A DNA stretch of 64,000 nt from Lentisphaerae bacterium GWF2_45_14 (GTDB lineage: Bacteria > Verrucomicrobiota > Lentisphaeria > Victivallales > GWF2-45-14), in NCBI GenBank assembly GCA_001804785.1, contig MHBG01000005.1, forward strand, positions 1 to 64,000. The letters run 5' to 3'. Of the stretch, positions 3,205 through 21,927 are shown piece after piece; position 1 is the first letter of the stretch; each line of letters opens with the position of its first letter. The notes beneath the pieces were generated by a model that searched no databases, was not told the DNA's origin, and saw nothing but the letters and a program-made list of their open reading frames with translations. The translations under genes were made by a program, and so were the position numbers.

Positions 3205-5007
3205 ATGAAGCAATATTTCAAACAGGCTGAAATTACGCCTAAACAGGCGCTGGCCGGTGATAGTGTGTGCATCAGCATGCGTCTGGTGATCGGCTTTGAT
3301 TTTATCAGCGAAAAAGCGCGCCTGGTCTTTGACCTTCCCGGCACCCTGAAATTTTCCCGTCCAACCTGTTTTTTACAATCGGAAGATGGTTTTGTGGAAG
3401 TGTATTGTTCCAATCCCGATGTCGTTTATTCCAAAAAAATATGGGATATAGAGAAAGGCGTATTTATCGAAAAGGGCCCGCAAGCTGGCAATGGCGGCAG
3501 AGCGCAGCGATTTTTTATTCTTGATATTGAGGAAGGGCAGCTGGCGGAGAATGACGAAATCGAAGTGCGCTGGGGCGATACGGTTTACGGTTTCGGCACC
3601 GGTACCAAGGTAGCCTCGGTCATAACATTCCCCGATTACAAAGCCATAGTAGATGTCAGGTATTTTATCGATCGTGAAAAATCCCTGCCTGACTGGGGGC
3701 GTGATTTCAAGGGATACCGCAGGCCAACGCCGGATTGGGAAACGCCGCTGGAAATGGCGCTTTTGCCGCGCGAGCCGGAAACTTTTCGCCAGATCCGCAA
3801 ATTCGGCAAGTCTTATCTGCAGTTGCGTGACCGCTTTTACAATATCTGCGCGGTTAATGACCCGGCGCCTTTTGTCAAAGAGAAAATCAGCGCGAAAAAA
3901 AATGAAGCCGGAGTTTTTGAGATTACATCAACAGCGGCTGTTACCTCCCGTTGCCTGCCAGCTGCCAGTACACCGGATATGCGGAAGGTTTATCAGGGAA
4001 ATAATATTTATTTCGGAGATCTGCATACGCATTCCTCCATTTCCAATGATGTTGTTGACCGGCAGAAAGGCCTCAGCACTCCGCTGCGTCATTTTTCTTA
4101 TGCCCGCTATGGAGCCGCGCTTGATTTTTGCGCACTCACGGATCATCATCAGCCCTGGGATATTGAACGCAATAAAATCGGAGAAAAAGGCTGGGAAACT
4201 ATCTGTTCGGCCGTAAAGAAAAATAATCAGCCGGGAGAATTTCTGGCGTTTGCCGGGTTTGAATACCGCTGTCCGCGCGGCGATACGGCCATTGTGCTTA
4301 ATGAACCGTTTTCCTACTATGAAATTGATGATCCGGAAATGAAAGGCATTAAAGACTTGTGGAAAAAATTCAGAAGCCGTGATTATCTTTCTATCCCGCA
4401 TTTTCATAACAGCGGCAATCTTGCGGTAAGTGAGTGGTATGAGTGCCCGTATTCCCAAATTGAGCCGGTACTGGAAATAAATTCCTGTCACGGAAGCTAT
4501 GAGCGGGAAGGTGTGCTGGAATGCGGGCTTTCCCTTTCCAGGCCGTTCCGTCCTGACCGTACAGCAGCCTGGTTTTTACAGAATAATTTTAAATACGGCC
4601 TAGTCTGTAATTCCGATGGGCATATCGGCAACCCGGGAAGCAATGGCCTGATGGCGGTTTATGCCGAAGAACTTTCGGCAGAAGCAATTTTTACCGCCAT
4701 CCGGAAGAGGCAGGTTTACGGAACTACCAATGCCCGGATAAAACTGCTCTTTACCATTAACGGTAACTTAATGGGATCATGCCTTGCTCCTGCGCCGGAA
4801 AAAAACGTGCATATTTCCCTGCAGGGAGAAAGACAGTTTAAAGCTGTAGATTTATATAAAAATGCTGTTTTGTATAAACGCTTCAAGCCATATACTGAAA
4901 TTTTTCAGACCGATATAATAGTTCATGATCAAGAAGCGGCAAACTGGTATGTTCGCGCCGTGCAGCTTGATAATCAGACAGCCTATGCAAGCCCGATCTG
5001 GATTTAA
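3205..5007 (+). CDS. DUF3604/PHP-like domain protein (putative metal-dependent hydrolase)
   Basis: IYFGDLHTHSSISNDVV...LDFCALTDHHQPW...NSDGHIG metal-ligand motifs; ATG at 3205 preceded by GGAGAAAAAG. The ORF opening at 3136 overlaps the previous gene. Confidence 0.75.
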   Translation: MKQYFKQAEITPKQALAGDSVCISMRLVIGFDFISEKARLVFDLPGTLKFSRPTCFLQSEDGFVEVYCSNPDVVYSKKIWDIEKGVFIEKGPQAGNGGRAQRFFILDIEEGQLAENDEIEVRWGDTVYGFGTGTKVASVITFPDYKAIVDVRYFIDREKSLPDWGRDFKGYRRPTPDWETPLEMALLPREPETFRQIRKFGKSYLQLRDRFYNICAVNDPAPFVKEKISAKKNEAGVFEITSTAAVTSRCLPAASTPDMRKVYQGNNIYFGDLHTHSSISNDVVDRQKGLSTPLRHFSYARYGAALDFCALTDHHQPWDIERNKIGEKGWETICSAVKKNNQPGEFLAFAGFEYRCPRGDTAIVLNEPFSYYEIDDPEMKGIKDLWKKFRSRDYLSIPHFHNSGNLAVSEWYECPYSQIEPVLEINSCHGSYEREGVLECGLSLSRPFRPDRTAAWFLQNNFKYGLVCNSDGHIGNPGSNGLMAVYAEELSAEAIFTAIRKRQVYGTTNARIKLLFTINGNLMGSCLAPAPEKNVHISLQGERQFKAVDLYKNAVLYKRFKPYTEIFQTDIIVHDQEAANWYVRAVQLDNQTAYASPIWI

Positions 5008-5128
5008 AAATTATTTACTGCCGTGATAACGGGGGGTCGCACTCTTGCCCGACATTACAGTGATGATTTTTACTTAAATAATTTATGGTTAATGATATAG
5101 CTACGAATATGATGTCAAAAGGCAGCCA

Positions 5129-5403
5129 CAATATATGTTGAGGAAATAAAGAATAAGCAGGGCAGGAAACTCTATCGGACTGTTTTGATCAGGGAAAGCT
5201 ACAAGGAAAAGGGGAAGGTCAAGCATCGGACGATTGCCAATATCAGCCGTCTGCCCGCTTCGCAGATCGTGCAGATAAAGGCAGTGTTGCCTGGAAGGGG
5301 CGCATTCCTGTCGGATGAGGAACTGGAAATCGCCTCTTCCCGCGAGTACGGAGCGTCCGCTGCCTTTCTTGAGCTCGGGAAAATGCATATTGGAGAATCC
5401 TGA
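5129..5403 (+). pseudogene. N-terminal remnant of an IS1634-like (IS4 superfamily) transposase
   Basis: Frame reads YVEEIKNKQGRKLYRTVLIRESYKEKGKVKHRTIANISRLPASQI, typical of IS1634-type transposase N-termini; terminates after about 90 aa, with no DDE domain. Confidence 0.65.
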
Positions 5404-5434
5404 TATATCCTTAATATTGGAGGAGCAAAGACTT

Positions 5435-5993
5435 ATAACGCAGGTAGCTGTATCGATTGTCTTTATTGTGGGCGGCTGTTCCAGTACGCCGCTGCCTCCT
5501 ACCTTGACGACTGAAGAACTCGATTTTATCAGAAACCATAAACCGGTAAATGCGACTGTCGATGTAAAAGAAGACAGCATGTATCCGGCTTATTCGCGGC
5601 AGCTCTATGAGGCGCTGAAAGAGATATAATGTTTTTAGGGAAGTGACGTATCAGGCAGAATCTTCCCATAATAAGGCATCATACACCGCCCAGATAAAAT
5701 GGCGCGAATACGAGACAAAGTCGCCGCAGGCGTTATTGGCTTTCCTGGCATTCGGAATCATTCCTACTTGGGCGAAAGAAGACACCGGAGTGTGTTTTAT
5801 CCTGAAATCAACAGGTAATCCTTCTGAAACATGCAACGTCGAAGTGGCATGGACCGGTACAACTCTTATGGGGTGGGTGATGCTTTTTGCGAATTTGTCT
5901 TCGGACAGGTCATATTCCAGTTCCTGCGATTCGGAGCGCTACCGGGACAGGATGAAGCTCGCGGTGTTGAACGCTTTAGCCGTTGCAAAATGA
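5435..5993 (+). pseudogene. degraded lipoprotein gene (lost start codon plus frameshift)
   Basis: SD-like GGAGGAG followed by in-frame ATA (5435) and lipobox VAVSIVFIVGGCSS; frame 1 stops after ALKEI (about 5629), and the neighbouring frame continues KRYNVFREVTYQAESSHNKASYTAQIKW...MKLAVLNALAVAK to 5993. Confidence 0.5.
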
Positions 5994-6109
5994 CAGGAAT
6001 CCAGAGAAAGCGAATTTTTCCCGGGGAAAAAGTCTTGAAGTTTCGCTGAATGTGGTATATATATAACGTTCCGTATGAAAAAATAATTATAATCAACAGG
6101 TAAAAAACA

Positions 6110-6556
6110 ATGGTAAATACTGTCATAATCATACTTTACGCGCTGGTCGTTCTGATCGCGGTGCTGCTGACCTGCCTTATCCTTATACAGCCATCCAAGA
6201 GCGGCGGCCTCGGAGCATCCTTTGGCGGGGTCGGAGAGAGTGTCTTCGGCGCACATGCGTCATCACACCTTACGAAACTTACTGTTATAATGATAACGGT
6301 TTTCTTTGTCGTCGTGCTTGCTCTGGCCGTTATAAGCGGTCACGCAAGAAAAGAGCCGCAGAGTATTTTGGAGCTTGAAAGCGCGACCGCTGCTCCCGCA
6401 AAGACAGCAAAGACGGCATCGCCCGGGCTTATGGAAGTGACCCCTTCCGGAGAAAAGATTCCTGTTCCCGTTCCCAAAAAGGAAGAAGTTCCCGCGCCCG
6501 CCGTTCCTGTTCAGAAATCTGAGCCGGTATCAGTTCCGGTACCTGTCAAGAAATAA
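6110..6556 (+). CDS. secG: preprotein translocase subunit SecG
   Basis: Two TM segments with LILIQPSKSGGLGASFGG motif; unusual Pro/Val/Lys-rich C-terminal tail. Confidence 0.9.
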   Translation: MVNTVIIILYALVVLIAVLLTCLILIQPSKSGGLGASFGGVGESVFGAHASSHLTKLTVIMITVFFVVVLALAVISGHARKEPQSILELESATAAPAKTAKTASPGLMEVTPSGEKIPVPVPKKEEVPAPAVPVQKSEPVSVPVPVKK

Positions 6557-6570
6557 AAAAGGTGGCGTTG

Positions 6571-7596
6571 ATGGCTTTTGAAAATAGAAGCTTTGACGCC
6601 GTTTTTTACGAGGCCTTCGAGGAAGAGGAAAAAGTACTTAGGGAATTCCTGCCGCAGGACGTGAACTGTCTTTTTACCTGGAAGACGATACAGGAGAGCG
6701 GACACGAACTTCCGCCTTCACCCATAATCAGCACAAGGACACAGTCGGAGTTTCCCGACGCCTGGAGCCCCCACCTAAAAGCCATCATGACAAGATCGAC
6801 CGGTTATGATCATGTGTCCTCTTATATAATAAGGAATGGGATGCGGGACAGGATAAGTTGCGCATATCTGCCGGACTATGCGGCGCGGGCCGTCGCGGAA
6901 CAGGCAATGCTTTTGTGGACCGCTCTTTCGAGAAAAATGAAAAAACAGATGAAGTCCTTCGAGTCGTTCAACAGGGATGGTCTTACCGGGGGCGAGGTTT
7001 TTGGGAAAACGATACTCGTTGCCGGGGTCGGCAGGATTGGTTCAAAGATAGTCGAAATCGCCTCAGGGCTGGGGATGAAGGTACTTGGTTTCGACATAAA
7101 GCCGCAGAAAGTCCTTGAGGAAAAATTTTTCCTTAAATACGTAAGTCTTGAAGATGCTTTGCCAACGGCGGATATTGTCGTATGTGCGCTGCCTCTTACT
7201 TCCGGTACCGAAGGGCTGTTCAACTACGCTCTTCTTTCAAAAGTCAAAAAAGGCGCTTTTTTCATAAATATCGCAAGGGGTGAGATTTCTCCCTCAATAG
7301 ACATACTGAAACTTCTTGATGAGTCCCGTCTCGGCGGAGCGGGCCTTGACGTATACGACTGCGAAAGGGAACTTGCGCTTTATCTGAGGGGCGGCAGGAG
7401 TGCCGGTGATTTTCCGGATGGGCCGGGAAAAAGGGCAGAGGCTGTATTGAAAATGATGGAGCGCGATGACGTTGTCCTTTTTCCGCACAATGCTTTTAAT
7501 ACTGTTGAATCGGTGAGAAGAAAGTGCTGTCAGGCGGTTGAGAATCTCTCCTGTTTTCTGAATGAGGGGCGCTTTCTGACTCCTGTAGAGTTTTGA
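6571..7596 (+). CDS. D-isomer-specific 2-hydroxyacid dehydrogenase family protein
   Basis: VAGVGRIGSKIVEIASGLGMKVLGFD NAD-binding motif; FINIARGEISPSIDILKLLDESRLGGAGLDVYDCE signature. Confidence 0.85.
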   Translation: MAFENRSFDAVFYEAFEEEEKVLREFLPQDVNCLFTWKTIQESGHELPPSPIISTRTQSEFPDAWSPHLKAIMTRSTGYDHVSSYIIRNGMRDRISCAYLPDYAARAVAEQAMLLWTALSRKMKKQMKSFESFNRDGLTGGEVFGKTILVAGVGRIGSKIVEIASGLGMKVLGFDIKPQKVLEEKFFLKYVSLEDALPTADIVVCALPLTSGTEGLFNYALLSKVKKGAFFINIARGEISPSIDILKLLDESRLGGAGLDVYDCERELALYLRGGRSAGDFPDGPGKRAEAVLKMMERDDVVLFPHNAFNTVESVRRKCCQAVENLSCFLNEGRFLTPVEF

Positions 7597-7757
7597 ATAT
7601 TAAAATAAATATTGCATAGTCTTTATGTTGTAGCAGGCACTTTTTTTTATATAAAAAGCGCAAATATATTAGGATTTCATTTGCAATTTTTCAGACTGCT
7701 AATTATTGTAGGCGGATTATTGAGCTATTAACAGAATAATTTCCGAAAGGAAGGCGT

Positions 7758-8432
7758 ATGAGGAAGATATTCTCTTATTTGTCGGTTCTGATGCTTTTTC
7801 TGGCTTGCCGGGAGCTTTCTGCCCAGTCTAAAATGCCCGTCAGCGATGCCAAAATGGACCTCCGATTCATTGAGACGGTAAGGGTCAAGTCGGATACTGA
7901 TAACGTGAAGATGGGAGGGGAGTCGCGCTGGATAGAGATAACTCTCAGTTATAAACTTCCGAAGCTCATGGAAGGCGCCGATGAAAAGTGGATTGATGAT
8001 GTGGAGGTGATTTGCGAGCTTTTAATGCCTACAAACTACAAGGGCCGTTCCGGTGTCTACGCCCACTTTACCGGGAAATTCACTTACTGGTCACTGCCTT
8101 GTGACGGTAAAACGCATTCCGAGTCAATGTATATCCCCCCCCAGATACTTAGCAGATATAAGAAGGTCGGCGAAAAAATAAAGAGAGAAATGATCAAAGA
8201 GATGTACGCCAAGATTACTTTCTATACGAAGGACAGAAGGGTGATTGGTTATGCGTTTGCCGGTCCCAAAGGCAAGTCAGACAGTACGATAGATTCCGTT
8301 TTTAAGAAAGTCAGCGAACCGGGCGCCATGGTGATAAACGTTGAAAACGTGATAATGCCGAGGAACAAGACCCCGTGGGCGCCGTTTAATTATGACTACT
8401 ATGACCTGATTAAAGAGGACGTGCAGAAATAA
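7758..8432 (+). CDS. exported protein of the pilus-assembly locus (position corresponds to Amuc_1102)
   Basis: Signal peptide MRKIFSYLSVLMLFLACRELSAQ; ends 3 nt before the pilM-like start. Assignment is by synteny only. Confidence 0.55.
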   Translation: MRKIFSYLSVLMLFLACRELSAQSKMPVSDAKMDLRFIETVRVKSDTDNVKMGGESRWIEITLSYKLPKLMEGADEKWIDDVEVICELLMPTNYKGRSGVYAHFTGKFTYWSLPCDGKTHSESMYIPPQILSRYKKVGEKIKREMIKEMYAKITFYTKDRRVIGYAFAGPKGKSDSTIDSVFKKVSEPGAMVINVENVIMPRNKTPWAPFNYDYYDLIKEDVQK

Positions 8433-8434
8433 TC

Positions 8435-10207
8435 ATGGCCGCTATTGAATCAATACTTGCGATAGATGTGGGTGGCGACAGTCTGAAGATGGCGGAGTTC
8501 AGTTATCCTCCGGAAGGCGGCATGGTACTGGAGAAGTTTGCCTTTACCGAGTTTGGCGGGGACCTCAAGGAGGAGCAGTTGCTGGATGCTCTCGGGCAGG
8601 CGTTTAAGAGTACGATTGATGAAAATGGGTTCAGGTCAAAGAAGATACACCTTTCGCTCTCAGGGCAGTCCGCTTTTATTAAAATCGTAAAGCTTCCTTC
8701 GGTAGGCGAGGACGAAAACAAAGTAAGACAGCTCGTCGAGTATGAAGCCAAGCAGAATGTTCCATTCTCTATGGATGAAGTGGTCTGGGATTATCAGCTC
8801 AGACGTAATCCCGATGACGAGACTGAAATAGAAGTGATGTTCGTCGTGATTAAGAATGAAATTATTTCTGAGATCACGAAGGTTATTGAGGAAGTCGGCA
8901 GGGAAGTCGTGCTTATAGAAGTTGCGCCGACCTCATGTTACAATGCGGCCAGGGCCAACGAAATAGGCGACAATGACTGCGAGATGATACTCAATATCGG
9001 CGGTCGTTGTTCAAGCCTTGTCTTTATAGACAGCGGGCGCTTCTTCGTCAGGACCATTCCAATAGCCGGACACTCCGTCACTCAGCAGATAAGCAAAGAG
9101 TTCGGAATACCTTTTGCGGATGCCGAAGAGCTTAAACGCCGCCATGGTTTTGTTGCCTTGGGCGGAGCTTACGAGGAGCCCGACTCAGAAGTAGCGGCGA
9201 CGGTTTCAAAAATAGTCAGAAACGTGATGACCCGTCTTCATGGGGAAATAAACAGGTCGATAAATGTGTATCGCTCCCAGCACAACGGTAAAAAACCCTC
9301 CAAGCTTTATCTTGCGGGCGGCAGTTCCGTTATGGCATTTACTCCCAGGTTCTTTGCTGAAAAGCTGCGTATTCCGGTAGAATATTTCAACCCCTTCCAG
9401 GTGGTTTCAATTTCCGAATCAATAGATAAGAATGAGCTTTCCGAAGTCGCGCACATGTTTTCCGAGGTGATAGGCCTTGGGCTTAGGCATGCCACGGTAT
9501 GTCCGATCGAGATTTCTCTGATGCCGGAACTACTCAAAAAATACCATGAGTTCAGGGCAAAAATACCGTACTTCTACGCCAGCGCGATAAGCCTTGTACT
9601 CTGCTTGCTTATTATGTTCTGGGCCGTCGGAACCATGCTCAGCTTTGACCAAGAGAGAGTTAAGATGGCCAGGCGAGAGGTAAACCAGACAGGAAGCCTC
9701 CTTTCCGATGTAAAGACCGCGACTAATAAGCTCAATAGACATAAAAAGCAATACGATGAGGCTTCTTCAATCCTCCTTCAACGAGGCCAGTGGGTAGACC
9801 TGCTGGACGCGTTGCAGGCATCGCTTCCAGACCAGACGTGGCTTACGAAGGTCACCGCTTCCTCAGATGCCTCAGATGAGGGAAGTGGCTCTGCGGCTGG
9901 ACCTGAAGGGGCACCTTTCGGCGGCGGTTTTCTGCCGATATTCAGGACCCCCGGCAAGCACGGGGAGGGCGGCTCGCAGTCTCGTCAGAGTTCTGAGATA
10001 AACTGGCTTCAAGTGGAAGGCCATTCCTGGGAGGGCGGTCAGAATGTTTCGTATGAAGAACAGTTTAAGGAAAATATGGTTAAGGATCCATTCTTTACGG
10101 ACAGTAAAGATGAAATAAGAACGGTATTTTTTCTTCCAGCCAGAGGGAATAACAATGTTACGACCTTCAAGATGGAAGTAAAGCTTAAAACCCCGATTAA
10201 GAAATAG
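8435..10207 (+). CDS. pilM: PilM-PilN fusion, type IV pilus assembly protein (Amuc_1101-like)
   Basis: ILAIDVGGDSLKMAEF actin-like phosphate loop; VRQLVEYEAKQNVPFSMDEVVWDYQ and LYLAGGSS PilM motifs; then TM (FYASAISLVLCLLIMFWAVG), coiled coil and LLDALQASLPDQTWLTKV PilN-like segment. Confidence 0.85.
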   Translation: MAAIESILAIDVGGDSLKMAEFSYPPEGGMVLEKFAFTEFGGDLKEEQLLDALGQAFKSTIDENGFRSKKIHLSLSGQSAFIKIVKLPSVGEDENKVRQLVEYEAKQNVPFSMDEVVWDYQLRRNPDDETEIEVMFVVIKNEIISEITKVIEEVGREVVLIEVAPTSCYNAARANEIGDNDCEMILNIGGRCSSLVFIDSGRFFVRTIPIAGHSVTQQISKEFGIPFADAEELKRRHGFVALGGAYEEPDSEVAATVSKIVRNVMTRLHGEINRSINVYRSQHNGKKPSKLYLAGGSSVMAFTPRFFAEKLRIPVEYFNPFQVVSISESIDKNELSEVAHMFSEVIGLGLRHATVCPIEISLMPELLKKYHEFRAKIPYFYASAISLVLCLLIMFWAVGTMLSFDQERVKMARREVNQTGSLLSDVKTATNKLNRHKKQYDEASSILLQRGQWVDLLDALQASLPDQTWLTKVTASSDASDEGSGSAAGPEGAPFGGGFLPIFRTPGKHGEGGSQSRQSSEINWLQVEGHSWEGGQNVSYEEQFKENMVKDPFFTDSKDEIRTVFFLPARGNNNVTTFKMEVKLKTPIKK

Positions 10208-10229
10208 AAAAAAAGGCAGTTGTTCACTT

Positions 10230-11426
10230 ATGGATTTCGTTAAGAAAAATGCACTTCTGGCGATAGTTCTGGCAGTTACTTTTGTTATCTGCGCGACTTT
10301 GCTTTTCCTTGTGTATCAGAGGCATGGCGAGTTGAAAAAATCTTTTGCCCAGCTTGAAAGCATAAGGGAAGAGATCAATAACCTTATTAGGCAGTCGCCC
10401 GCTCCTTTGAAGGAAAATCTCGACAGAATCAATGACGACTCTAGGGTTATGAAGGAAAAGGCTGATGAGATAAGCCGGATTTTCGGACAGCCCAACAGGT
10501 TCGCCCTTCAGTCTTTTGCCGCAGAACTGGGTATGACGGAGGATGAAATCTCCGCAAGGTTCAGAGATTTCTGGAGCAGGGAAGCAAGAAAGGGTTCCAA
10601 TCGTTATCAGCTGTTGATAAAATTCAAAAAGGAGTTTGACAGGGCGAAGCTGGCGAAAGCCATTGAAGCGTTCATGAAGATTGCGCAGAAGGAAACAGTT
10701 GAGCCCCTTGATGACGCGAATACAGACGATCTTTTGCTGGCCTCTCTCGGCCTTCCCCGCGCAATGAGCAATGTGAACTGCAAAACATATATGATATCCA
10801 AGATGCAGCCTAATTTGGTGAGATTCCTTGAGGAGGAGCCGTTTACTTCCTGCAATGATGTTGCAAAGTTTTCCTTTGAGGAGTTTGACAACAGAATGCC
10901 GCTTGAAGAGAACATTCCTTATATACTCAGGCACTGGACTGTAATTGATGATCTTGTGAAAAGGATCAAGGCTTCGGGTATCTCCAGTTTTGACAATCTG
11001 ACCAAACTGAACGGTCTTAACGGGGAAATCGACAGGGAATTTCTGAAATTCAGGTATTCTATCACGGTCACGGGGTCGCAGAATTCCATCAGAGCCCTCG
11101 TAAATAGCCTGATGGACGCGTATAAGACCAACAGGGTTTACATCATTAAAAATATTACAATGGAAAAACGGCAGGACGAGATCAAGGAGATAACAGAGGG
11201 GAAAGAGACGAAAACAGCAGCCAGAAATCCCTATCTGCCGCCCGGTATTGGAAGAGAACAGGCGCCGCAGCCGGGAGCACCCGGTTCCAAGCCCGAGGAT
11301 GAAGAAAATCTTCCGTTGCAAAAAAGAAAAGATTATGGCATTATCATTTTCGGTAATGAGAAGAACATAAGGGCCGTTATCGAGTTAGAGTACGTGATAT
11401 ACGTCGCAAGTGAATATAGAATTTAA
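10230..11426 (+). CDS. Amuc_1100-like / PilO-like inner-membrane pilus assembly protein
   Basis: Short cytoplasmic N-terminus, one TM helix, coiled coil; C-terminal YSITVTGSQNSIRALVNSLMDAYKTNRVYIIKNITME ... IFGNEKNIRAVIELEYVIYV matches my recollection of the Amuc_1100 C-terminal pattern; position between pilMN and secretin. Confidence 0.65.
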   Translation: MDFVKKNALLAIVLAVTFVICATLLFLVYQRHGELKKSFAQLESIREEINNLIRQSPAPLKENLDRINDDSRVMKEKADEISRIFGQPNRFALQSFAAELGMTEDEISARFRDFWSREARKGSNRYQLLIKFKKEFDRAKLAKAIEAFMKIAQKETVEPLDDANTDDLLLASLGLPRAMSNVNCKTYMISKMQPNLVRFLEEEPFTSCNDVAKFSFEEFDNRMPLEENIPYILRHWTVIDDLVKRIKASGISSFDNLTKLNGLNGEIDREFLKFRYSITVTGSQNSIRALVNSLMDAYKTNRVYIIKNITMEKRQDEIKEITEGKETKTAARNPYLPPGIGREQAPQPGAPGSKPEDEENLPLQKRKDYGIIIFGNEKNIRAVIELEYVIYVASEYRI

Positions 11427-11446
11427 TAATTGAAGGAGTTGCGGAT

Positions 11447-12676
11447 TTGTCATTCCTCAAGAAACATTACGAGAAAATAATCTTGACAATATTGCTCACT
11501 GTTTTTGTCCTTTCACTTGTTTATCTCATAATAACGATATTGAGCTCCAAGAATATTACGCCCGATATGTTGAAGCTTCCCAAGAAGAACGCCGACTATA
11601 AGAAAATGGACTTTGAAAGTCAGACCTTCAATGTTCTCAAAAATATGGCTTCTCAAAAACAGTGGGTAGTTTCATTGGCAAGAAACAGTGAGGACAAGTT
11701 CTGGACAGATTTCATGGTGCCATTCGCGGCGGCAAGGTCCCCGCACGGCAAGAAAAACATAGTGCCTTTCTATTACTTTGAAAAGAAATCCGGAATCAAT
11801 AAGTGTCCGTTTACCGGCAAGCCGTTGCCCCAGCCGGAAGGGGAAAAGGAGCCGCCGGAAGAAAAAGACAGAGATGCTGACGGTATTCCAAACGATGTAG
11901 AAAAAGAACTCGGACTTAATCCGGATGACCCGGATGACGCGCTCGGTGACATGGACAATGACGGTTTTTCAAATATTGATGAGTTGAAGCAGGATAAGCT
12001 ATGGGTCAATGATGCCAAGTTGCATCCTCCACTGGCGAAGAGGCTATGTGTCGTCAATATCATAAAATCCAAGATCCCCATAAAACTCAAAAGGGTCAGG
12101 GCAGTCGGCAGTAATAAAAAGGACTGGGAAATTCATGCCGAGGTCTTTGAAAAGGGGCGTTGGAGAAGCAAATTTCCAAAACTTAACGAAGTTCTCAATA
12201 TCGGCGGAAGAAATTATACAATAACAGACGTCGTGGATAAAAAGGACAAGGTGTTCGTCAAGTCCCTCAACTCGTGGACGGAAAAAGATTCATCTATCGT
12301 CGTCCTTCAGGATAATGATTCAAAAGACATTATAAAGGCGGAAGTCGGCGAGTCCGTCTTCGCCCCCAGGATGAGGGCCTTGCTTCAGGATGTCCTGACC
12401 GAAAAGAAATATACGCTATCTGTCGGCGATGAGTTTACAATAGGAAGCGAAGAGCAGGGATTTGAGAACTACAAGATTGTAAATGCCGATCCGAAGACGG
12501 AAGAGGTAACTGTGGTAGCTCTTCCCGGCAATACGACGTTCTCCATTACGAGAGAGAAGATGAATCTACCACCCGTATCTTCCATAAAAAAGAAACACGA
12601 AATTATTGACGAGGATCCTATGCGTATGCCACCAGCGGCACCCGGGATCAATCCAAGAGGTAGAAAGCTCCGCTAA
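11447..12676 (+). CDS. single-pass membrane protein, PilP-like / Amuc_1099-like, with thrombospondin type 3-like Ca-binding repeats
   Basis: N-terminal TM; DRDADGIPNDVEKELGLNPDDPDDALGDMDNDGFSNIDEL; C-terminal beta-rich GDEFTIGSEEQGFENYKIVNADPKTEEVTVVAL. Confidence 0.6.
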   Translation: MSFLKKHYEKIILTILLTVFVLSLVYLIITILSSKNITPDMLKLPKKNADYKKMDFESQTFNVLKNMASQKQWVVSLARNSEDKFWTDFMVPFAAARSPHGKKNIVPFYYFEKKSGINKCPFTGKPLPQPEGEKEPPEEKDRDADGIPNDVEKELGLNPDDPDDALGDMDNDGFSNIDELKQDKLWVNDAKLHPPLAKRLCVVNIIKSKIPIKLKRVRAVGSNKKDWEIHAEVFEKGRWRSKFPKLNEVLNIGGRNYTITDVVDKKDKVFVKSLNSWTEKDSSIVVLQDNDSKDIIKAEVGESVFAPRMRALLQDVLTEKKYTLSVGDEFTIGSEEQGFENYKIVNADPKTEEVTVVALPGNTTFSITREKMNLPPVSSIKKKHEIIDEDPMRMPPAAPGINPRGRKLR

Positions 12677-12716
12677 AGTTTAAATTCAAATATTGAACAC
12701 ATGAGGAAAATATAAT

Positions 12717-15110
12717 ATGAACAGCTTTGTCTCTATTTTAAGAGTCCTGCAGGAGACGCGAAAACTGATATTAACTGCATTTGTCTGCCTATTTGTTGCA
12801 TTTTCTATGACTGCGGCTGATGAGTCTGCCGCGATGAAAGACGTGGTGCAGTCCGAGCAGGCTTCGAGAAAGGCTGTTGTTGATGACGTTTCCAAGCTAA
12901 TGGACGAAGCCCAGTCATTTATGGTGCAAAATAAATTTTTTGAGGCCAGCAGAAAATGTGTCGCTGCCAGGGCGAAACTCGATAACTTGAGCGGCCCATA
13001 TGCGGAACTCAAAAGACAGAAGCTCAATGAGTTTAACGAAACGCTCAAAAGGCGCTGGGCTTCCGCGCTTATGGTGGATGCAAGAATGGCCATCAGGGAA
13101 AAAAGGTATGACGAGGCTATTTCCATGGCAAAATCTCTATCCAAGATAAATCCCGACCAAGAGGCGGCGGCCAAGAACCTAATAGATATGGCAGGCCGCT
13201 TCAAAAAATCTGACGATTTCAAAGACAAGACAGCTCTTGTCGCGCTAGACCCCGACAACAGCGAAAGAAAGGAGGACGTAAATGTCCTCATTCAGGAAGC
13301 TAGGGTACTATATAAAAATAAGGAATATGACAAGGCTAGGGTAAGTATTGAAAGGGCGTTGCTGAAAGATCCTTACAACGTGGATGCGACTTTTTTGCTG
13401 GATAAGCTCTATAGGCGGGAGTTTAGTGTAGGCAATCAGAGGCGTGAGAACGAGATACTTGAAAGAATGTATGAAGTGGAATGGAAGTGGAATGAGGCCG
13501 TGCTTCCGACAGAAGCGATAAAACCGAAAGGTGAAGGACCTAAGGAAGCCGAAGGCTCCAAAGTCGGTATTTTTGATAAGCTCAATAAAATAGTTTTTGA
13601 CCAGATCGATTTCGATGAGGCATCCATAACCTCAGTTATCACTCACCTTAAGCAGAGAAGCAAACAGCTTGATCCGGACGGTGTTGGCGTAAGCCTTATC
13701 CTCCGCCTCTCAGAGGAGATGGCCAAGTCTGATCCGAGGGTCACCATGAGTTTTGACCAAATTCCGATGTCCGAGGTCCTTCGGTATCTCTGTCAGGGGA
13801 CGGGACTCAAGTACAGAGTGGAAGAGCAGGCTGTACTTATCGGCGATGCGGATATTGACGAGATGGAAACAAAGTTCTTTAAGGTGAGAGCCGAGCTTAT
13901 ATCAAATATTATCACGGGCGGTTCCGGCGGCAAAGATGATGGCGGCGACACTGCCGACACTGCCGTGGCCAGTGTTGACATAACAGCGGTCGACACAACT
14001 TCTACCAAGCCGGCAGCAGCAGCCACTTCTGACGCGTTGAAAAAATATTTTATGGACAGGGGTGTTCCATTCTCGGAGGGCTCGACTGTCGCGTATGAAA
14101 GAAGATCGGGAAAACTTATTGTCAAGAACTCGCTCGAGAATCTTCGCAAACTTGAGTTTCTGCTCCGTGAGCTTGATATACAGAAACCCATGGTGCTTAT
14201 AGAAGCCAAGTTCCTTGAGATTCAGCAGACCGACCTGGAAGAACTAGGCTTTGACTGGATATTCAGCGGTCAAGGTGTGGGATATTCATATGAATCCGAT
14301 AGCCCTGCACAGCAGGCTTTCGGAATTAATGAGACCAATAAGCTTGTTAGAAACGTGGCGGGCACCAATCTTAATAATACAGACAGAGCGGCCAATGCCC
14401 AGGACAGAGTCATAAATAACCTAGCGCTGATTCCCAATTCGGGCGGCGATAATCAGTTCAATCTTTACGTATCTGTTTACGCATTGGATCGGAGCGGACG
14501 TGTGGATACACTTTCATCTCCGAAGGTGATAGCGTCAAGCGGGACTACTGCGACTATTCGAATGGTAAGGGAATATTATTTCCCCGAATCCTGGAATGAA
14601 CCTGAGATATCCATAACAAACTCCGCTATTTCCTATACTCCTGCCTATCCCGCGTTTGGAGAGACTACCGATGTGGGTATAAGGTTTGAAGTTACTCCGA
14701 CCGTGTTTTCCAACAACTACACAATCATGCTTGAGCTTAATCCGCAGGTTATCGCGTTTGTTCAATGGACAGAGTATCCGATTGACGTAGTGGTCGGGGG
14801 TGTTGAAATTGTCCCTCCCCAGGTAATAAGAATGCCTGAACTTTCAAAGCGTGACCTCGTAGCCAAAATAAAAGTATTTGACGGCGAAACTGTAGTTCTC
14901 GGCGGTATGCTGACCAGCACTAACTCATCTAGACAGGACAAGTATCCCGGCCTTGGGGATATTCCAATTGCGGGAAGACTCTTCCAGAGCATTATGGACC
15001 GGAAAATAAAAACGAATCTGATGATTTTTATGACGTGCAGACTCATGAATAATGATGGCGTGCCTGTCCGCAGAAATGTGCTGAGAGGTTTGCCGGAGTT
15101 CAATAGATGA
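12717..15110 (+). CDS. pilQ: TPR-containing secretin, PilQ/GspD-like (first copy, Amuc_1098-like)
   Basis: Signal peptide, TPR-like N-terminus, STN/N1-type domains, secretin motifs (VLIEAKFLEIQQTDLEELGFDW; LSSPKVIASSGTTATIRMVREYYFPESW; FDGETVVLGGMLTS; KYPGLGDIPIAGRLFQS). Confidence 0.9.
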   Translation: MNSFVSILRVLQETRKLILTAFVCLFVAFSMTAADESAAMKDVVQSEQASRKAVVDDVSKLMDEAQSFMVQNKFFEASRKCVAARAKLDNLSGPYAELKRQKLNEFNETLKRRWASALMVDARMAIREKRYDEAISMAKSLSKINPDQEAAAKNLIDMAGRFKKSDDFKDKTALVALDPDNSERKEDVNVLIQEARVLYKNKEYDKARVSIERALLKDPYNVDATFLLDKLYRREFSVGNQRRENEILERMYEVEWKWNEAVLPTEAIKPKGEGPKEAEGSKVGIFDKLNKIVFDQIDFDEASITSVITHLKQRSKQLDPDGVGVSLILRLSEEMAKSDPRVTMSFDQIPMSEVLRYLCQGTGLKYRVEEQAVLIGDADIDEMETKFFKVRAELISNIITGGSGGKDDGGDTADTAVASVDITAVDTTSTKPAAAATSDALKKYFMDRGVPFSEGSTVAYERRSGKLIVKNSLENLRKLEFLLRELDIQKPMVLIEAKFLEIQQTDLEELGFDWIFSGQGVGYSYESDSPAQQAFGINETNKLVRNVAGTNLNNTDRAANAQDRVINNLALIPNSGGDNQFNLYVSVYALDRSGRVDTLSSPKVIASSGTTATIRMVREYYFPESWNEPEISITNSAISYTPAYPAFGETTDVGIRFEVTPTVFSNNYTIMLELNPQVIAFVQWTEYPIDVVVGGVEIVPPQVIRMPELSKRDLVAKIKVFDGETVVLGGMLTSTNSSRQDKYPGLGDIPIAGRLFQSIMDRKIKTNLMIFMTCRLMNNDGVPVRRNVLRGLPEFNR

Positions 15111-15159
15111 TGGTAAATTCAGCAGCTATTACAACGAACCCCAATTCACGGAGGATTAG

Positions 15160-17682
15160 ATGATAAAAACCATATATTTCAAATTTGTTACGGCGGCGGC
15201 CTTTTTCTATGCGTTTTCCCTTCCCTGTCATTCCGCAGATGGCGACACTAATCCTTCGCAGCAGCCGGCGGTGAAAAACCAATATGCCGAGGAAGTCGGC
15301 AAGGATATCGTCCTCCGTGAAGAATATGAGATAAGCGCGGACAATTTCTTCAGGGAAGGAAATGACGCATTTCAGAAGAATGATTTCCAAAAGGCTGTCG
15401 ATTCTTTTCTGAAAGCTCTCGAAAATCTCCGTAAGTGCAGTGATACAAGCGAGTATATAAAGGCAAAAATAGAGTCGACCGACAAGGCGATAGCGAGGTC
15501 CTACTTCTACTGGGCGGAGTCGATTGCCCGTCAAGCTGAAAAAAATATGAAGGCCGAAGATTTCGATATGGCTATAGCCAATTGCAGCGAGGCGATAAAA
15601 GTTTATCCGCCATGCAGAAAGAAAATGGAGGAAATGCTTCAGCGCCTCGAAAAAATGAAAAAAGGCACGGCTTATAAAAGCGAAATCGACGAAGACACTC
15701 TGGACCCTGATAAAAAAGAGAGAGAATATAAAATGGACCTTCTCCTTAAAAAAGGCATGACCTTTTATAAGGACAGGCAGTATGACAGGGCTAGGGATAT
15801 TTTTGAAGAAGTCCTCGTGATTAATCCTTATAATATGACAGCCATTGACAGTTTGAGAAAGACCAACCTGAAACTCCTGGCGACGGGTGAAGCACGCACC
15901 CAGACAACCAGAGCCGAGCGAATTGACGAAGATGAATGGAAAATGGTTTCCCCAATTTTACCAAGAACACTCACCGGCGCAACAGAGTCGGTCATAACTC
16001 CGGTGGACAAGGAGAGTACTTCTGATAAGATACAGCAGAAGCTCAAAAATATTGTCATCGATCGTATTGTTTTTGAAGATGTAACCCTTCCGACAGTTGT
16101 GAAATATCTCAAACAGAGAAGCAAACAGCTGGATCCCGAAAAAACAGGAGTGAACATATTTCTTCGGCTTTCAACTAAGAAGCCAGCTGAAGCGGCGCCG
16201 GATGCGGCCGTGGACGAGTGGGGCGACAACAGCACCGAAGGAGAAAAAGATGACGCGGACACGGAGGAAAAAGACAGTGCGGACACAGACAGCGGAGGAG
16301 AAAGCGACGGCACCAGTACTGAGAACATGTCTGCTGGTGATGTCCCGACAGTTACTCTCGCCGTTGAAAATATTGAACTCGGAGCCGCGATAAATTATAT
16401 ATGCAAGCTTGCAAATGTAAAATACCGCGTGGAAAGATACGCCGTGGTTATCGCCTCAAATGATGTTCCCCTTGAGGACGTGGAAACAAAAATATATCCC
16501 CTTGACCAGGAAGCCATTGACAAGATAGGCGATGACAATGAGGCCGTAAGAAAGCACTTTGAAAATAGAGGTATTCTCTTTCCCGCAGGCGCGAGAATCG
16601 TGTATGACAGCAAGATAAGCCGCCTTATCGCGACCAATACCCCTGACAACCTCAAGAAGGTCGAGGAGATTATTTATAACGAACTCAACGCTGTTGACCC
16701 CCAGGTTCTTATCCAGACAAAGTTCGTGGAAATAGCCCAGAACGACCTCGAAGAACTCGGATTTGAATACTATTATTCAAGATCCGGGACCATCGATGTA
16801 GCTGATATGGGTCATCCTTTTGACAATTTGAGTAATCCACTTGGTCCGATGGTTGATGGCAGTCCTTCGCCAATAACCAAAATAGGCCCGAATTCAACTA
16901 CTTATGATGTAAACGATAGAACAATGCGGGGCGTGAATAATGACGGCATAGGGGATATTACTGCAGGTTCTCGTCCTGACCAAATGTTCAATATGGTATA
17001 TGCGGATGATCGCAACCGGGCATTTCAAGTCATTGTAAACGCGCTCGACCAGTGCGACAGTGCGGACGTTCTTTCTACGCCTAGGGTTACGACGATGAAC
17101 GGTGAGGAAGCGACCATAAGAATGGTAACAGAAGTTTATTATCCCGAATCTTGGACCGAGGCCACGCTTGCCCAGACAACAGGGGCCAATGGCGGTCTCG
17201 GGGCTGGTGTTTTTACATCTTCGGTCCCGGAATTCGGCGAAACGACCGAATTGGGTATAGTTTTGAAGGTAACACCCCAAGTTGACGCTGACAGGTATAC
17301 TATAACCCTTGAGATGAACCCCGTTGTTAAATCGTATGTAGGCGATACCGACTACAGTTATCAGGTTACAGTCAGTGGTGATAACTATACAAATACCCTT
17401 ACGATGCCTATTATAGAATCCAGGACAGTACAGACCTCAGTCACCATCTACGACGGAGAGACGATTGTCCTCGGTGGTATAATAAAGGACAGGGTTAATT
17501 CCTATGATGATAAAATACCGGTACTAGGGGATATTCCCATTGTCGGCAGGGCATTTCAGAGCAAGTCGCAATACAGTGAAAAGGCCAACCTTCTTATATT
17601 CCTTACATGCCGCCTCATAAATCCGAACGGTTCTCCGATAAGGGAGCGTGAGGTCAGAGGTCTTCCATCGTTCAGGCAGTAG
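15160..17682 (+). CDS. TPR-containing secretin, PilQ/GspD-like (second copy)
   Basis: Same architecture and motifs as the preceding gene (VLIQTKFVEIAQNDLEELGFEY; LSTPRVTTMNGEEATIRMVTEVYYPESW; YDGETIVLGGIIKD; KIPVLGDIPIVGRAFQS). Confidence 0.9.
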   Translation: MIKTIYFKFVTAAAFFYAFSLPCHSADGDTNPSQQPAVKNQYAEEVGKDIVLREEYEISADNFFREGNDAFQKNDFQKAVDSFLKALENLRKCSDTSEYIKAKIESTDKAIARSYFYWAESIARQAEKNMKAEDFDMAIANCSEAIKVYPPCRKKMEEMLQRLEKMKKGTAYKSEIDEDTLDPDKKEREYKMDLLLKKGMTFYKDRQYDRARDIFEEVLVINPYNMTAIDSLRKTNLKLLATGEARTQTTRAERIDEDEWKMVSPILPRTLTGATESVITPVDKESTSDKIQQKLKNIVIDRIVFEDVTLPTVVKYLKQRSKQLDPEKTGVNIFLRLSTKKPAEAAPDAAVDEWGDNSTEGEKDDADTEEKDSADTDSGGESDGTSTENMSAGDVPTVTLAVENIELGAAINYICKLANVKYRVERYAVVIASNDVPLEDVETKIYPLDQEAIDKIGDDNEAVRKHFENRGILFPAGARIVYDSKISRLIATNTPDNLKKVEEIIYNELNAVDPQVLIQTKFVEIAQNDLEELGFEYYYSRSGTIDVADMGHPFDNLSNPLGPMVDGSPSPITKIGPNSTTYDVNDRTMRGVNNDGIGDITAGSRPDQMFNMVYADDRNRAFQVIVNALDQCDSADVLSTPRVTTMNGEEATIRMVTEVYYPESWTEATLAQTTGANGGLGAGVFTSSVPEFGETTELGIVLKVTPQVDADRYTITLEMNPVVKSYVGDTDYSYQVTVSGDNYTNTLTMPIIESRTVQTSVTIYDGETIVLGGIIKDRVNSYDDKIPVLGDIPIVGRAFQSKSQYSEKANLLIFLTCRLINPNGSPIREREVRGLPSFRQ

Positions 17683-17775
17683 AGGTCGTTTTCGGTTCTG
17701 AAATATTATGGCTCCCAAGAGGCTTGACCTTGAATAGACATGCGCGATTTTATCATCCGCATACCAGGAACGCAC

Positions 17776-18636
17776 ATGGAAAAGAAACCTATCACGCTGC
17801 CATACGTTTGGAATACGCCTGTAAACTGCGTCCATCCGCTGACGGCATTTCCATATCCTCTCGGCATAGCCGCGCAGTCCATAACTACGTGCGATTACTA
17901 CTTTGAAGGCAGATTGAGAAATGACGGGAATAGGCGCTGCGGTTTTCAGTACACTCTTGACGGCTCCGGGATATTTCAGGACTCCGGGGGGGAATACGAA
18001 ATAGGTCCAGGAAAAGGCTTTCTTTGGCAAATAGATGATCCTGAAACAATATATTATTACCCGGAAAATTCACGGAAGCCGTGGCGCTTTATCTTCATAA
18101 CATTCTACAATGCAATGGACATGACAATGGAAATGTGTTCACGTTTCGGACACGTCTATCATCTTGCTCCAGAAAATCCCATGATTGCGAATCTCAGGAG
18201 TTTCAGCCGATTCGACGGGACGATGATTGAGATGTCGTCCGGTGAATGCCTGAATCTTATAAGCGGTATATTTGCGGAGCTTCTTGCGTCTGCCCAGGAA
18301 AATGTCCATGAGAGTCCGTCAACCAGCATCGCAAGGCGCGTGAAAAAATATATTCATGAGCATCTCGGAGACTCCTTTACCTTGAAGGATGCGGCGGATT
18401 TTTTGAAAATATCTCAGGAACATCTTTCCCGAACATTCAAAAAAGAGACTGGAATGAGTCCAGTCGAATACGTAAAAAATGAGAAGATAAAAATGGCATG
18501 TGAGCTTCTTAAATCAAGCCCGCTGAGCTGTAAGGAAATACTTACGGAACTTGGTTACGAAAACTCGTCCTACTTTACACGGATATTCAGGAAAGCCGTT
18601 GGCAAATCCCCAAGCGAATACAGGCTCAAAAGGTAA
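17776..18636 (+). CDS. AraC family transcriptional regulator (cupin-like sensor + HTH)
   Basis: C-terminal FTLKDAADFLKISQEHLSRTFKKETGMSPVEYVKNEKIKMACELLKSSPLSCKEILTELGYENSSYFTRIFRKAVGKSPSEYR; SD-like AGGAA before ATG 17776. Confidence 0.9.
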   Translation: MEKKPITLPYVWNTPVNCVHPLTAFPYPLGIAAQSITTCDYYFEGRLRNDGNRRCGFQYTLDGSGIFQDSGGEYEIGPGKGFLWQIDDPETIYYYPENSRKPWRFIFITFYNAMDMTMEMCSRFGHVYHLAPENPMIANLRSFSRFDGTMIEMSSGECLNLISGIFAELLASAQENVHESPSTSIARRVKKYIHEHLGDSFTLKDAADFLKISQEHLSRTFKKETGMSPVEYVKNEKIKMACELLKSSPLSCKEILTELGYENSSYFTRIFRKAVGKSPSEYRLKR

Positions 18637-18639
18637 AGT

Positions 18640-19902
18640 ATGAACAGGGAACAAAAAAGCTGGATACTCTACGATGTCGGAAACTCAGCATATATTCTCA
18701 TCGTAACAACCGCTCTGATGCCAGTTTTTTATAAGAGTTATGCCGCCGTGGGAATGTCTGACAGTGCGTCGACGGCCCAATGGGGGTTCGCTAACAGTGC
18801 CGCCTCACTTGTCCTTGCGCTTGCGGCACCGATACTGGGGACGCTTTCGGACTATAATGGGAACAAGCTCAGATTTCTCAAGTTTTTCATTCTGGCTGGT
18901 ACATTTTCAACGCTTCTGCTTACTCTGATAACGAAGAGTTCGTGGCTCACTGCCCTAATCATATACGCCGTAAGCATGATTGGATATTCCGCGGCAAATA
19001 TATTTTACGACTCACTTCTTCCAGATGTCGCGCAGGGTAAAGACATGGACAGGGTATCCGCTCTCGGTTATGCATGGGGCTACATTGGCAGTGTTATCCC
19101 CTTTGTTCTTGTGATTGGGCTTCTCTTCGCGGGGGAGAAGTTGGGTCTCCAGGCAGAGGCTGTGAAGACGGCCTTCGTCATAACCGCCGCGTGGTGGCTT
19201 CTTTTCTCGCTGCCTCTCCTGAGAAATGTAAAGCAGAAGTATTTCCTGAAAAAGAGAAAAAGATATATTACCCATTCTTTTCTCAGGTTGATTTCCATAT
19301 CCAAAGAGATAGGGAAAAACAAAAACGCGTTTATCTTCATGGCTGCCTATTTTTTCTACATCGACGGGGTCGATACGATAATTAGAATGGCAGTTCCATA
19401 CGGAAAAGATGCCGGGCTGGGAACGGGCGAGCTTCTACTGGCGGTTCTTTTTATTCAGATATTGGCCTTTCCCTTTGCGCTGGCGTACGGGAAAATGTCT
19501 GAATTCTTCGGAGCTAAAAAACTTATTTTCATAGCCATTACTATATATCTTCTCACGGTACTGCTGGGCTTTTTTCTGCCGCAGATACCGGATATCAGGG
19601 TCAAGTCGTGGGTATTCTGGCTGCTGGCCTTTCTGATAGCCACGTCGCAGGGGGGAATTCAGTCGCTGAGCCGTTCGCTTTTCGGGCGGATAATTCCGAA
19701 AGAAAAGTCCGGCGAATTCTTCGGATTCTACAATATCTTTGGCAAGTTTGCGGCGATTGCGGGCCCGTTTATAATGTCGATGGCGATATGGATTACCGGC
19801 GAATCGAAGTACGGAATACTGAGTTTATCGATTCTTTTCCTCGTGGGGGCTGGCCTCCTCTATTTCGTAAAGGAGGAGCATTCCCGAACTATTTCCAAGT
19901 GA
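18640..19902 (+). CDS. MFS transporter, UMF1/Atg22-like
   Basis: WILYDVGNSAYILIVTTALMPVFYK; 12-TM hydrophobicity; SLFGRIIPKEKSGEFFGFYNIFGKFAAIAGP. Confidence 0.85.
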   Translation: MNREQKSWILYDVGNSAYILIVTTALMPVFYKSYAAVGMSDSASTAQWGFANSAASLVLALAAPILGTLSDYNGNKLRFLKFFILAGTFSTLLLTLITKSSWLTALIIYAVSMIGYSAANIFYDSLLPDVAQGKDMDRVSALGYAWGYIGSVIPFVLVIGLLFAGEKLGLQAEAVKTAFVITAAWWLLFSLPLLRNVKQKYFLKKRKRYITHSFLRLISISKEIGKNKNAFIFMAAYFFYIDGVDTIIRMAVPYGKDAGLGTGELLLAVLFIQILAFPFALAYGKMSEFFGAKKLIFIAITIYLLTVLLGFFLPQIPDIRVKSWVFWLLAFLIATSQGGIQSLSRSLFGRIIPKEKSGEFFGFYNIFGKFAAIAGPFIMSMAIWITGESKYGILSLSILFLVGAGLLYFVKEEHSRTISK

Positions 19903-20365
19903 GTGTGTGTGGCTTGGCGCCGTCCTTGAACATGTCGGGGTAGAGCTGCTGGGCGCATTTTGGACAGAGACTGTGCGAAAAGTCCGTATCGGAAAGGTTC
20001 TGTATATATTCCTCTATGGGGTACCAGTAGCCCTCGGCATTGCGGATGTCTTTGCACTGGGAGCAGATGGGGAAACGCCCGTCAAACGAGTTAGGATTAA
20101 TCTCGCTTTTCAAACCTTCAATCTGCTTCAAGTGTTTTTCAGATGTTCTCTTGATCTCTCTTATTTCCTTATCCATGACCTCAATTTTTTCGTTGAGTAC
20201 GGATATTTTTTCATTTTTTTCCTTGAGTTCCTGCTCTGATTTCAAGGTTGATTCGCTGATTTCACGGAGCTTGGACCGCAATTTCAGAGCATGCAGAAAG
20301 ATGAATATCCCTGCCGCCAGGAAAAATAAGGAAGAAAATGCAATTATGTATAGAGCGAAATTCAT
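19889..20365 (-). CDS. TM + coiled-coil protein with C-terminal zinc-ribbon-like domain of signalling proteins
   Basis: N-terminal TM, long heptad region, then FPICSQCKDIRNAEGYWYPIEEYIQNLSDTDFSHSLCPKCAQQLYPD (CxxC...CxxC). Confidence 0.75.
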   Translation of the reverse strand: MNFALYIIAFSSLFFLAAGIFIFLHALKLRSKLREISESTLKSEQELKEKNEKISVLNEKIEVMDKEIREIKRTSEKHLKQIEGLKSEINPNSFDGRFPICSQCKDIRNAEGYWYPIEEYIQNLSDTDFSHSLCPKCAQQLYPDMFKDGAKPHTLTWK

Positions 20366-20464
20366 AAATAAACATGTCCGTTAAATTATTGATACAATAG
20401 CACGCTTGGGAGAAAGTAATATCTCAGAATCTAAAAAAAAGAATGGTGCTGAGAAGTATTTTAC

Positions 20465-21493
20465 TCAGAGAAGCCCTTCTTTTTCGTCTATGCCGAATCG
20501 GATATTCATGCATTGTACGGCCTGACCGGAAGCGCCCTTCGTCAGATTGTCGATGGCGCTTGCCACGATAAGCCTGCCTGTGTGATCATCCAGCACGAAG
20601 CCCATTTCACAGAAGTTTGTCATCGTTACATTTTTAGTGTCGGGAAGTTTGCCATGGGGAAGCACTCTTGCGAAAAATTCATTATCATAGGCTTTCTGAT
20701 AAACCTCTGCCACCTTTTCCTGAGTGCAGCCGGAAGCCGTCTTGAAAAAAATGGTCGAATTTATGCCGCGGTTTACAGGGACAAGATGCGGCACGAAATT
20801 CATCTTTATCTCATCTCTGCCTGCGGCGAACGCAAGCTCCTGCTCTATCTCGGGAAGATGCCGGTGGCCCTTTATTGCGTAAGACCTTACGCTTTCGTTG
20901 CATTCCGGGAAAATATAGGCAAGGTCAACTTTGCGGCCCGCGCCTGAGACTCCGCTCATGCTGGAGGCAATGATTTCCTCATGGGATACTAAACCCGACG
21001 CTAGCAGCGGCGCGCTCGGCATTATGATACTTGTGGGATAACAGCCGGGACACGCGATGAGATCGGCTGTTTTTATGGCGTGCCTGTAGCATTCAGGAAG
21101 ACCGTAGACCGCAGTACTGAGGAGCTCAGGTGCCGGATGATCTTCCTTATAATATTGCTTGTATTTCTCCGGACTTTTTATCCTGAAATCGGCGCTGATA
21201 TCTATTACCTTTACGCCGGAGTTCAGGAGTGGTAGCGCAAATTCGGAGGCGAGTCCATGCGGGAGCGCCAAAAAGGCGACATCGCACTCGGCTGCTATTT
21301 TTCCGGCATCAGGAGCAGAAAACTTTATTTTCTGCTCCATAAAGCGGGGAAAAACCTCCCCTATCGGCTTGTCCGCATACTGACGCGACGTAATTATCTT
21401 TACATCGCAACTTTTGTGGCGGAAAAGAAGACGAAGAAGCTCCTCGCCGGAATAACCCGAGGCACCAACAACCGCGACTCGCACCTTTGACAT
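20465..21493 (-). CDS. argC: N-acetyl-gamma-glutamyl-phosphate reductase
   Basis: VAVVGASGYSGEELLRLL; ACPGCYPTSIIMPSAPLL active-site Cys motif. Confidence 0.95.
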   Translation of the reverse strand: MSKVRVAVVGASGYSGEELLRLLFRHKSCDVKIITSRQYADKPIGEVFPRFMEQKIKFSAPDAGKIAAECDVAFLALPHGLASEFALPLLNSGVKVIDISADFRIKSPEKYKQYYKEDHPAPELLSTAVYGLPECYRHAIKTADLIACPGCYPTSIIMPSAPLLASGLVSHEEIIASSMSGVSGAGRKVDLAYIFPECNESVRSYAIKGHRHLPEIEQELAFAAGRDEIKMNFVPHLVPVNRGINSTIFFKTASGCTQEKVAEVYQKAYDNEFFARVLPHGKLPDTKNVTMTNFCEMGFVLDDHTGRLIVASAIDNLTKGASGQAVQCMNIRFGIDEKEGLL

Positions 21494-21514
21494 AATACGC
21501 TCTGCCGTAGAAGA

Positions 21515-21913
21515 TTAGCGTTTCGAGAACTGGAAACGTTTGCGAGCTCCGGGCTGACCGGGCTTCTTTCTTTCCTTTTCTCTCGGATCGCGAGTAAGCA
21601 TTCCGCTGCTTTTAAGAACAGCGCGCAATGACTCGTCCTGCTTTACAAGAGATCTGGCGATTCCATGCCTTAGCGCGCCGGCCTGTCCGTTTGTGCCGCC
21701 GCCCTTAATAGAGGCTGAAATGTCGAATCTGTCGGTAGAATTTGTCACTGCAAGAGGCTGGAAGATGTATCCGCGGAGCGCTTCCACGGGGAAATACTTC
21801 TTAACATCCATGTCGTTTACTGTGATTTTTCCTGATCCTGGCTGAAGCCTCACGCTTGCGGAAGCGGATTTTCTCCTGCCCGTTGCTTTTATGCAGTCGG
21901 AATTGATAGTCAT
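21515..21913 (-). CDS. rpsI: 30S ribosomal protein S9
   Basis: ATGRRKSASASVRLQPGSGKITVN ... RHGIARSLVKQD ... GMLTRDPREKERKKPGQPGARKRFQFSKR. Confidence 0.97.
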   Translation of the reverse strand: MTINSDCIKATGRRKSASASVRLQPGSGKITVNDMDVKKYFPVEALRGYIFQPLAVTNSTDRFDISASIKGGGTNGQAGALRHGIARSLVKQDESLRAVLKSSGMLTRDPREKERKKPGQPGARKRFQFSKR

Positions 21914-21927
21914 TTCAACTTAACTCC

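Follow-up and report, generated by a model that had tools for sequence, protein, structure and literature searches.

A two-secretin relative of the Amuc_1098-Amuc_1102 locus as the probable type IV pilus scaffold of a Lentisphaerae bacterium

Six genes at positions 7758–17682 were analyzed in the window, i.e., the whole 64,000-nucleotide stretch of DNA studied here, which is from an uncultured bacterium of the Lentisphaerae type. The locus very probably (probability approximately 0.9) specifies the envelope-spanning scaffold of a type IV pilus machine, the only one with a PilM in the cell. Its least ordinary feature is the two secretins, which are an ancient, order-wide paralogous pair. Homology, the gene 3 fold, gene order, motor synteny, and the age and constraint of the duplication were computed here; the scaffold is predicted to assemble pili. 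The preliminary description had read the region as an Amuc_1098-1102-like pilus scaffold, and that overall reading was upheld, including in the two places where it could have failed: the fold of the gene 3 product and the neighbors of orthologous loci (both below).

The ORF check agreed with the earlier placement of six co-directional genes, all on the plus strand, separated by intergenic gaps of 2–49 bp. From gene 1 to gene 6, the products were assigned to the NCBIfam families Amuc_1102 (NF042424, E-value 1.2e-7), Amuc_1101 (NF045709, 1.3e-132), Amuc_1100 (5.4e-16), Amuc_1099 (NF042425, 1e-9), Amuc_1098 (NF042912, 6.7e-99), and once more Amuc_1098 (2.5e-99). The curated equivalog cut-offs were reached by none of the six proteins, which are thus homologues and not equivalogs, and the term "divergent homologue" of the Amuc_1098-1102 locus, as proposed earlier, is correct: the families and their order are the same and the scores are below the cut-offs. 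Nearly every locus taken from a related genome, that of an Akkermansia genome (L095) among them, had the same gene order, which excludes a chance arrangement. The closest named orthologous loci were mostly from Lentisphaerae/Victivallales. The window genome is a draft (~89% complete, 123 contigs). Just upstream of the locus (6110–6556), a SecG-like protein was recognized by eye from the translation. One orthologous locus (L125:10268-20182) was split into many short frames over PilMN, gene 3, gene 4, and the secretins, owing to decay, sequencing errors, or a different genetic code.

Gene 1 (7758–8432, plus strand) encodes an Amuc_1102-like exported protein with a Sec-type signal peptide, and its family was the first gene in most orthologous loci. 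No conserved lipobox cysteine was found among the gene 1 orthologues; the assignment as a lipoprotein was therefore dropped, and the product is probably not one. Gene 2 (8435–10207, plus strand) encodes a probable PilM-PilN fusion of the Amuc_1101 type. The Pfam domain PilM_2 (PF11104) was matched by residues 10–352 with an E-value of 7e-34, and gene 2 is the single PilM copy of the genome; its family was present in 124 of the 129 genomes of the class. After the PilM domain come the motif EISLMP (9509–9526, plus strand), a single transmembrane segment, and a PilN-like part, in this order. L362 and P364 of this motif were invariant among 18 diverse gene 2 orthologues, and we equate EISLMP with the IN(L)LP motif through which PilN docks on PilM. 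The PilN half itself matched PF05137 weakly (E-value 0.049), and the same model was detected in 7 of 18 orthologues at E-values up to 1 (best 0.0024); this weak match counts against the assignment. The fusion named in the preliminary description is not new, since the Amuc_1101 family already has it. In the proposed machine, the gene 2 product would supply a cytoplasmic PilM and, on the same polypeptide, an inner-membrane PilN.

Gene 3 (10230–11426, plus strand) encodes the protein at the PilO position, which is of the Amuc_1100 type and would act as the PilO partner of the gene 2 product. Its AlphaFold2 model (pLDDT 88, pTM 0.74) consists of a transmembrane segment, a coiled coil, a helical part, and a ferredoxin-like core. 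When the model was compared to the PDB with Foldseek, ranks 1–10 were all Amuc_1100 chains (best E-value 3.3e-6, probability 1.00), followed by Pseudomonas PilO (2rjz; E-value 6.7e-3, probability 1.00). With the alignment profile, the E-value was 2.4e-16 for Amuc_1100 and 0.011 for PilO of Myxococcus. The single-sequence search of the PDB returned chance matches only, and Amuc_1100 emerged by profile and fold. The likeness of this product to Amuc_1100 and PilO, on which the preliminary description had staked its reading, was thus recovered. The topology predicted for the gene 3 product agrees with a PilO in the inner membrane. In the literature, Amuc_1100 is placed in the outer membrane or on the pilus (PMC5332112, PMC10688800), a location that does not fit an inner-membrane PilO; Wang et al. 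2020, quoted in PMC13119276, had already noted that Amuc_1100 is structurally similar to proteins of type IV pili and T2SSs. No report naming Amuc_1100 as PilO was found in a literature search that covered few subscription journals.

Gene 3 has an enlarged helical part (residues 85–225; 10482–10904, plus strand), which separates the coiled coil from the core. Its length was 141 residues here and 141–261 residues in the loci of the order, compared to about 55–65 residues in most loci outside it; a few single-secretin rumen loci likewise aligned with long inserts in this part. The enlarged helical part and the secretin pair arose on the same branch, which counts as one event, and nothing causal between the two is shown.

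Gene 4 (11447–12676, plus strand) is located between the pilO and pilQ positions and encodes a protein of the Amuc_1099 type. It starts with TTG, and the N-terminus aligned with those of the orthologues. The AlphaFold2 model (pLDDT 87, pTM 0.61) comprises an N-terminal transmembrane helix, a flexible part, a TSP3 segment, and two beta domains. The product had previously been called PilP-like, which could not be maintained: Pfam PilP or T2SSC was not found in it, PilP was not retrieved by the PDB profile search, and the Foldseek comparison to solved structures gave no match at E-values up to 0.001. Only the gene position and the single transmembrane segment with a periplasmic beta part fit the name. 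The protein lacks the recognizable PilP domain of the PilP lipoprotein and has the N-terminal transmembrane helix in the model instead. When the beta domains were aligned with the genome's own GspC using hhalign, the probabilities were weak (40 and 10).

Gene 4 contains two calcium motifs of the TSP3 type, DRDADGIPNDVE at residues 141–152 and DMDNDGFSNIDE at residues 168–179 (11867–11983, plus strand). Motifs of this type were present in 80 of 100 gene 4 orthologues, compared to 1 of 439 proteins that these loci encode besides gene 4, and Pfam TSP3_bac matched 45 of 62 orthologues. Many orthologues also have one or two CxxC pairs; these are zinc-ribbon-like, lie in the predicted periplasmic region, and were lost from the window copy. 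In Thermus, PilW occupies the same gene position without sequence similarity to PilP and is regarded as a link to the secretin (PMC13039148). In the same way, the gene 4 product would act as PilP, probably bridging to the secretin via a calcium-stabilized TSP3 segment.

The motor had been expected to be elsewhere or absent, and it was located elsewhere: an operon of PilB, PilB2, PilT, and PilC was found in the same genome (C64:7489-13379), and one prepilin peptidase on another contig (C118). These proteins would be supplied to the scaffold from their own loci. In a genome of the same order (G055), the genes 1102-PilMN-1100-1099-Sec-Sec-PilB1-PilB2-PilT-PilC were contiguous and co-directional, with the motor genes directly after the second secretin. 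The motor proteins adjoining this locus (L196) were 59–63% identical to those of the C64 operon. The contiguity of scaffold and motor in G055 indicates that locus and motor belong to one type IV pilus machine. The same neighborhood bears on the reading that the locus is a divergent T2SS and not a pilus scaffold. The secretins scored about equally with GspD and PilQ models, and the PilO and GspM folds are related. However, the genome already has a T2SS in a separate operon on C81, with the secretin GspD (above cut-off), GspE, GspF, and pseudopilins. No GspE/GspF or pseudopilins were found within window positions 4000–22000, and the genes beside the orthologous locus of G055, where gspE/gspF would, according to the preliminary description, have marked a T2SS, were PilB1-PilB2-PilT-PilC instead. 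PilT retraction ATPases belong to pili and not to T2SSs. The T2SS identity was rejected on the separate C81 system and on the PilT and PilC genes adjoining the locus in G055, and is considered very improbable.

The two PilB-type ATPases of the C64 operon are in tandem (C64:7489-10986, L017). The tandem PilB pair was found phylum-wide, including Akkermansia, in genomes with one secretin or two, and a two-ATPase extension motor may be general in the phylum. Further ATPases were noted. A single 750-residue ORF on the minus strand of C112 (L024:5570-7822) contains two complete PilT-type ATPase domains and matched pilT_fam in two stretches with 798 bits; additional PilT-like ATPases were seen at two sites on C31 and one on C79. 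Proteins with a type IV pilin-type N-terminus numbered at least 58 and were distributed across many contigs (for example, window positions 219–1079), which far exceeds the need of one pilus. Outside the pilus locus and the T2SS, two adjacent proteins of 508 and 664 aa (L022:6361-9881, C66) had partial Secretin-domain matches.

Gene 5 (12717–15110, plus strand) and gene 6 (15160–17682, plus strand) encode copies 1 and 2 of a PilQ/Amuc_1098-type secretin, each with N-terminal TPRs, and the two would both serve the scaffold as PilQ. The Pfam Secretin domain was present in each (14481–15047 and 17041–17619, respectively), which, with NF042912 matches of ~1e-99, substantiates the earlier count of two secretins. 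The tandem pair was found in all 18 sampled loci of the order (L063-L068, L083-L094) and, within the named set, in most of the Lentisphaeria/Victivallales loci that were long enough to show it. The first sample also had 13 single-secretin loci, each of which belonged to another family of the class. Lentisphaera marina has three secretins, several Verrucomicrobiae have two in tandem, and Akkermansia has one inside the locus and one elsewhere.

In both secretin trees, built from a few dozen rows, the copy 1 secretins of the order formed one clade and the copy 2 secretins another, which points to one duplication predating the order. Forcing the two window secretins to be sisters was rejected (dlnL 140, AU p 4e-101). 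Forcing the first copies of Lentisphaerota and Verrucomicrobiae into one clade was rejected as well (dlnL 163, p 9e-52); a duplication common to the two groups was accordingly discarded, and the result argues that they duplicated their secretins separately. Among close relatives, dN/dS was 0.04–0.15 for both secretins, similar to PilMN, with several dS values near saturation. Conserved positions numbered 37 in both copies, 14 in copy 1 only, and 19 in copy 2 only, and several loops differed between the copies. Purifying selection and the copy-specific conserved positions indicate that both secretins are functional, and, as far as their sequences tell, the two have probably diverged in role. 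No report of paired PilQ secretins was found; the search was thin in subscription journals, so this is weak evidence of novelty.

Tandem duplicates are often redundant or decaying, and the second secretin could be read as such a recent copy. This is hardly credible here, as the duplication predates the order and sister placement was rejected, the secretin core is kept under purifying selection in both copies, and neither copy was lost in the 18 loci; tree, AU test, constraint, and retention together refuted it. The use of both secretins jointly, either as a mixed ring or as two obligatory assemblies, is given about even odds, and on one platform such use would be more likely than redundancy. 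The narrower proposal, that the secretin rings of the order are obligate hetero-oligomers in which two PilQ paralogues form one mixed channel on one PilMNO platform, is tentative and rather unlikely. If it were true, the separate duplications of Verrucomicrobiae and the three copies of Lentisphaera would represent other instances of such mixed channels.

Alternatively, the secretins may be separate channels, i.e., homomeric rings docking on a common platform, each dedicated to a particular pilus type or condition. This possibility falls somewhat short of an even chance and is almost as likely as joint use. Several filament kinds are possible given the pilin-type N-termini of the genome, the second Akkermansia secretin is located away from the locus, and loops as well as copy-specific conserved positions set the two copies apart. 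In the order, however, the copies are always adjacent with small gaps, no separate promoter signal above chance was found between them, and the single loss of a copy was never seen in the sample. Moreover, two kinds of pili pass through one secretin in Thermus (PMC13039148), and a second secretin is thus not required for a second pilus.

The tandem PilB pair and the tandem secretin pair occur together in the window genome and in the order, as would be expected if they made up two parallel pilus machines on one platform. Their distribution across genomes makes this improbable. The PilB pair was also found in genomes of the class that have one secretin (G315, G159, G253, G083, G393, and G394) and in Akkermansia, whereas Lentisphaera, with three secretins, showed no tandem PilB pair. 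The coupling of tandem PilB to tandem PilQ was rejected on this distribution, and since the PilB pair occurs with one secretin or two, the ATPases and the secretins do not correspond to each other as pairs.

The locus ties Amuc_1100, the Akkermansia "probiotic" protein, which is studied as a therapeutic, to the PilO position of a phylum-wide machine, and the true location and role of that protein become a testable question. Ever since the order originated, a pair of distinct outer-membrane pore proteins has been retained, next to each other, behind one scaffold. With an ancient, order-wide duplication here and separate duplications elsewhere, this is a natural test of why pilus machines keep two secretins, for which the single-secretin sister families are the controls.

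Among known systems, the Amuc_1098-Amuc_1102 locus of Akkermansia muciniphila shares with the window locus the five families, their order, the PilM-PilN fusion, the Amuc_1100 fold, and the TPR-secretin. Its gene 4 also keeps one motif of the TSP3 type. The window locus differs in having two secretins, compared to one in the Akkermansia locus (the second copy being elsewhere), in the enlargement of the gene 3 helical part, and in scores that are all below the NCBIfam equivalog cut-offs. With the PilMNOPQ system of type IVa pili (Pseudomonas, Myxococcus), the functions and order of PilM, a probable PilN, PilO, and PilQ are shared, and PilB, PilT, and PilC are present in the genome. In contrast to that system, PilM and the probable PilN are fused here, gene 4 has TSP3 motifs and no recognizable PilP, TPRs are fused to the secretin, and there are two secretins. 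The PilMNO-PilW-PilQ locus of Thermus thermophilus also has a protein that does not resemble PilP in sequence between pilO and pilQ (PMC13039148); there is one PilQ in it, and gene 4 and PilW were compared only through Foldseek against solved structures. The T2SS has in common with the window locus the Secretin domain and an inner-membrane scaffold of the PilO/GspM type, whereas the genome's own T2SS is the separate C81 operon, with a GspD bearing a signal-peptide cysteine, GspE/F, and pseudopilins.
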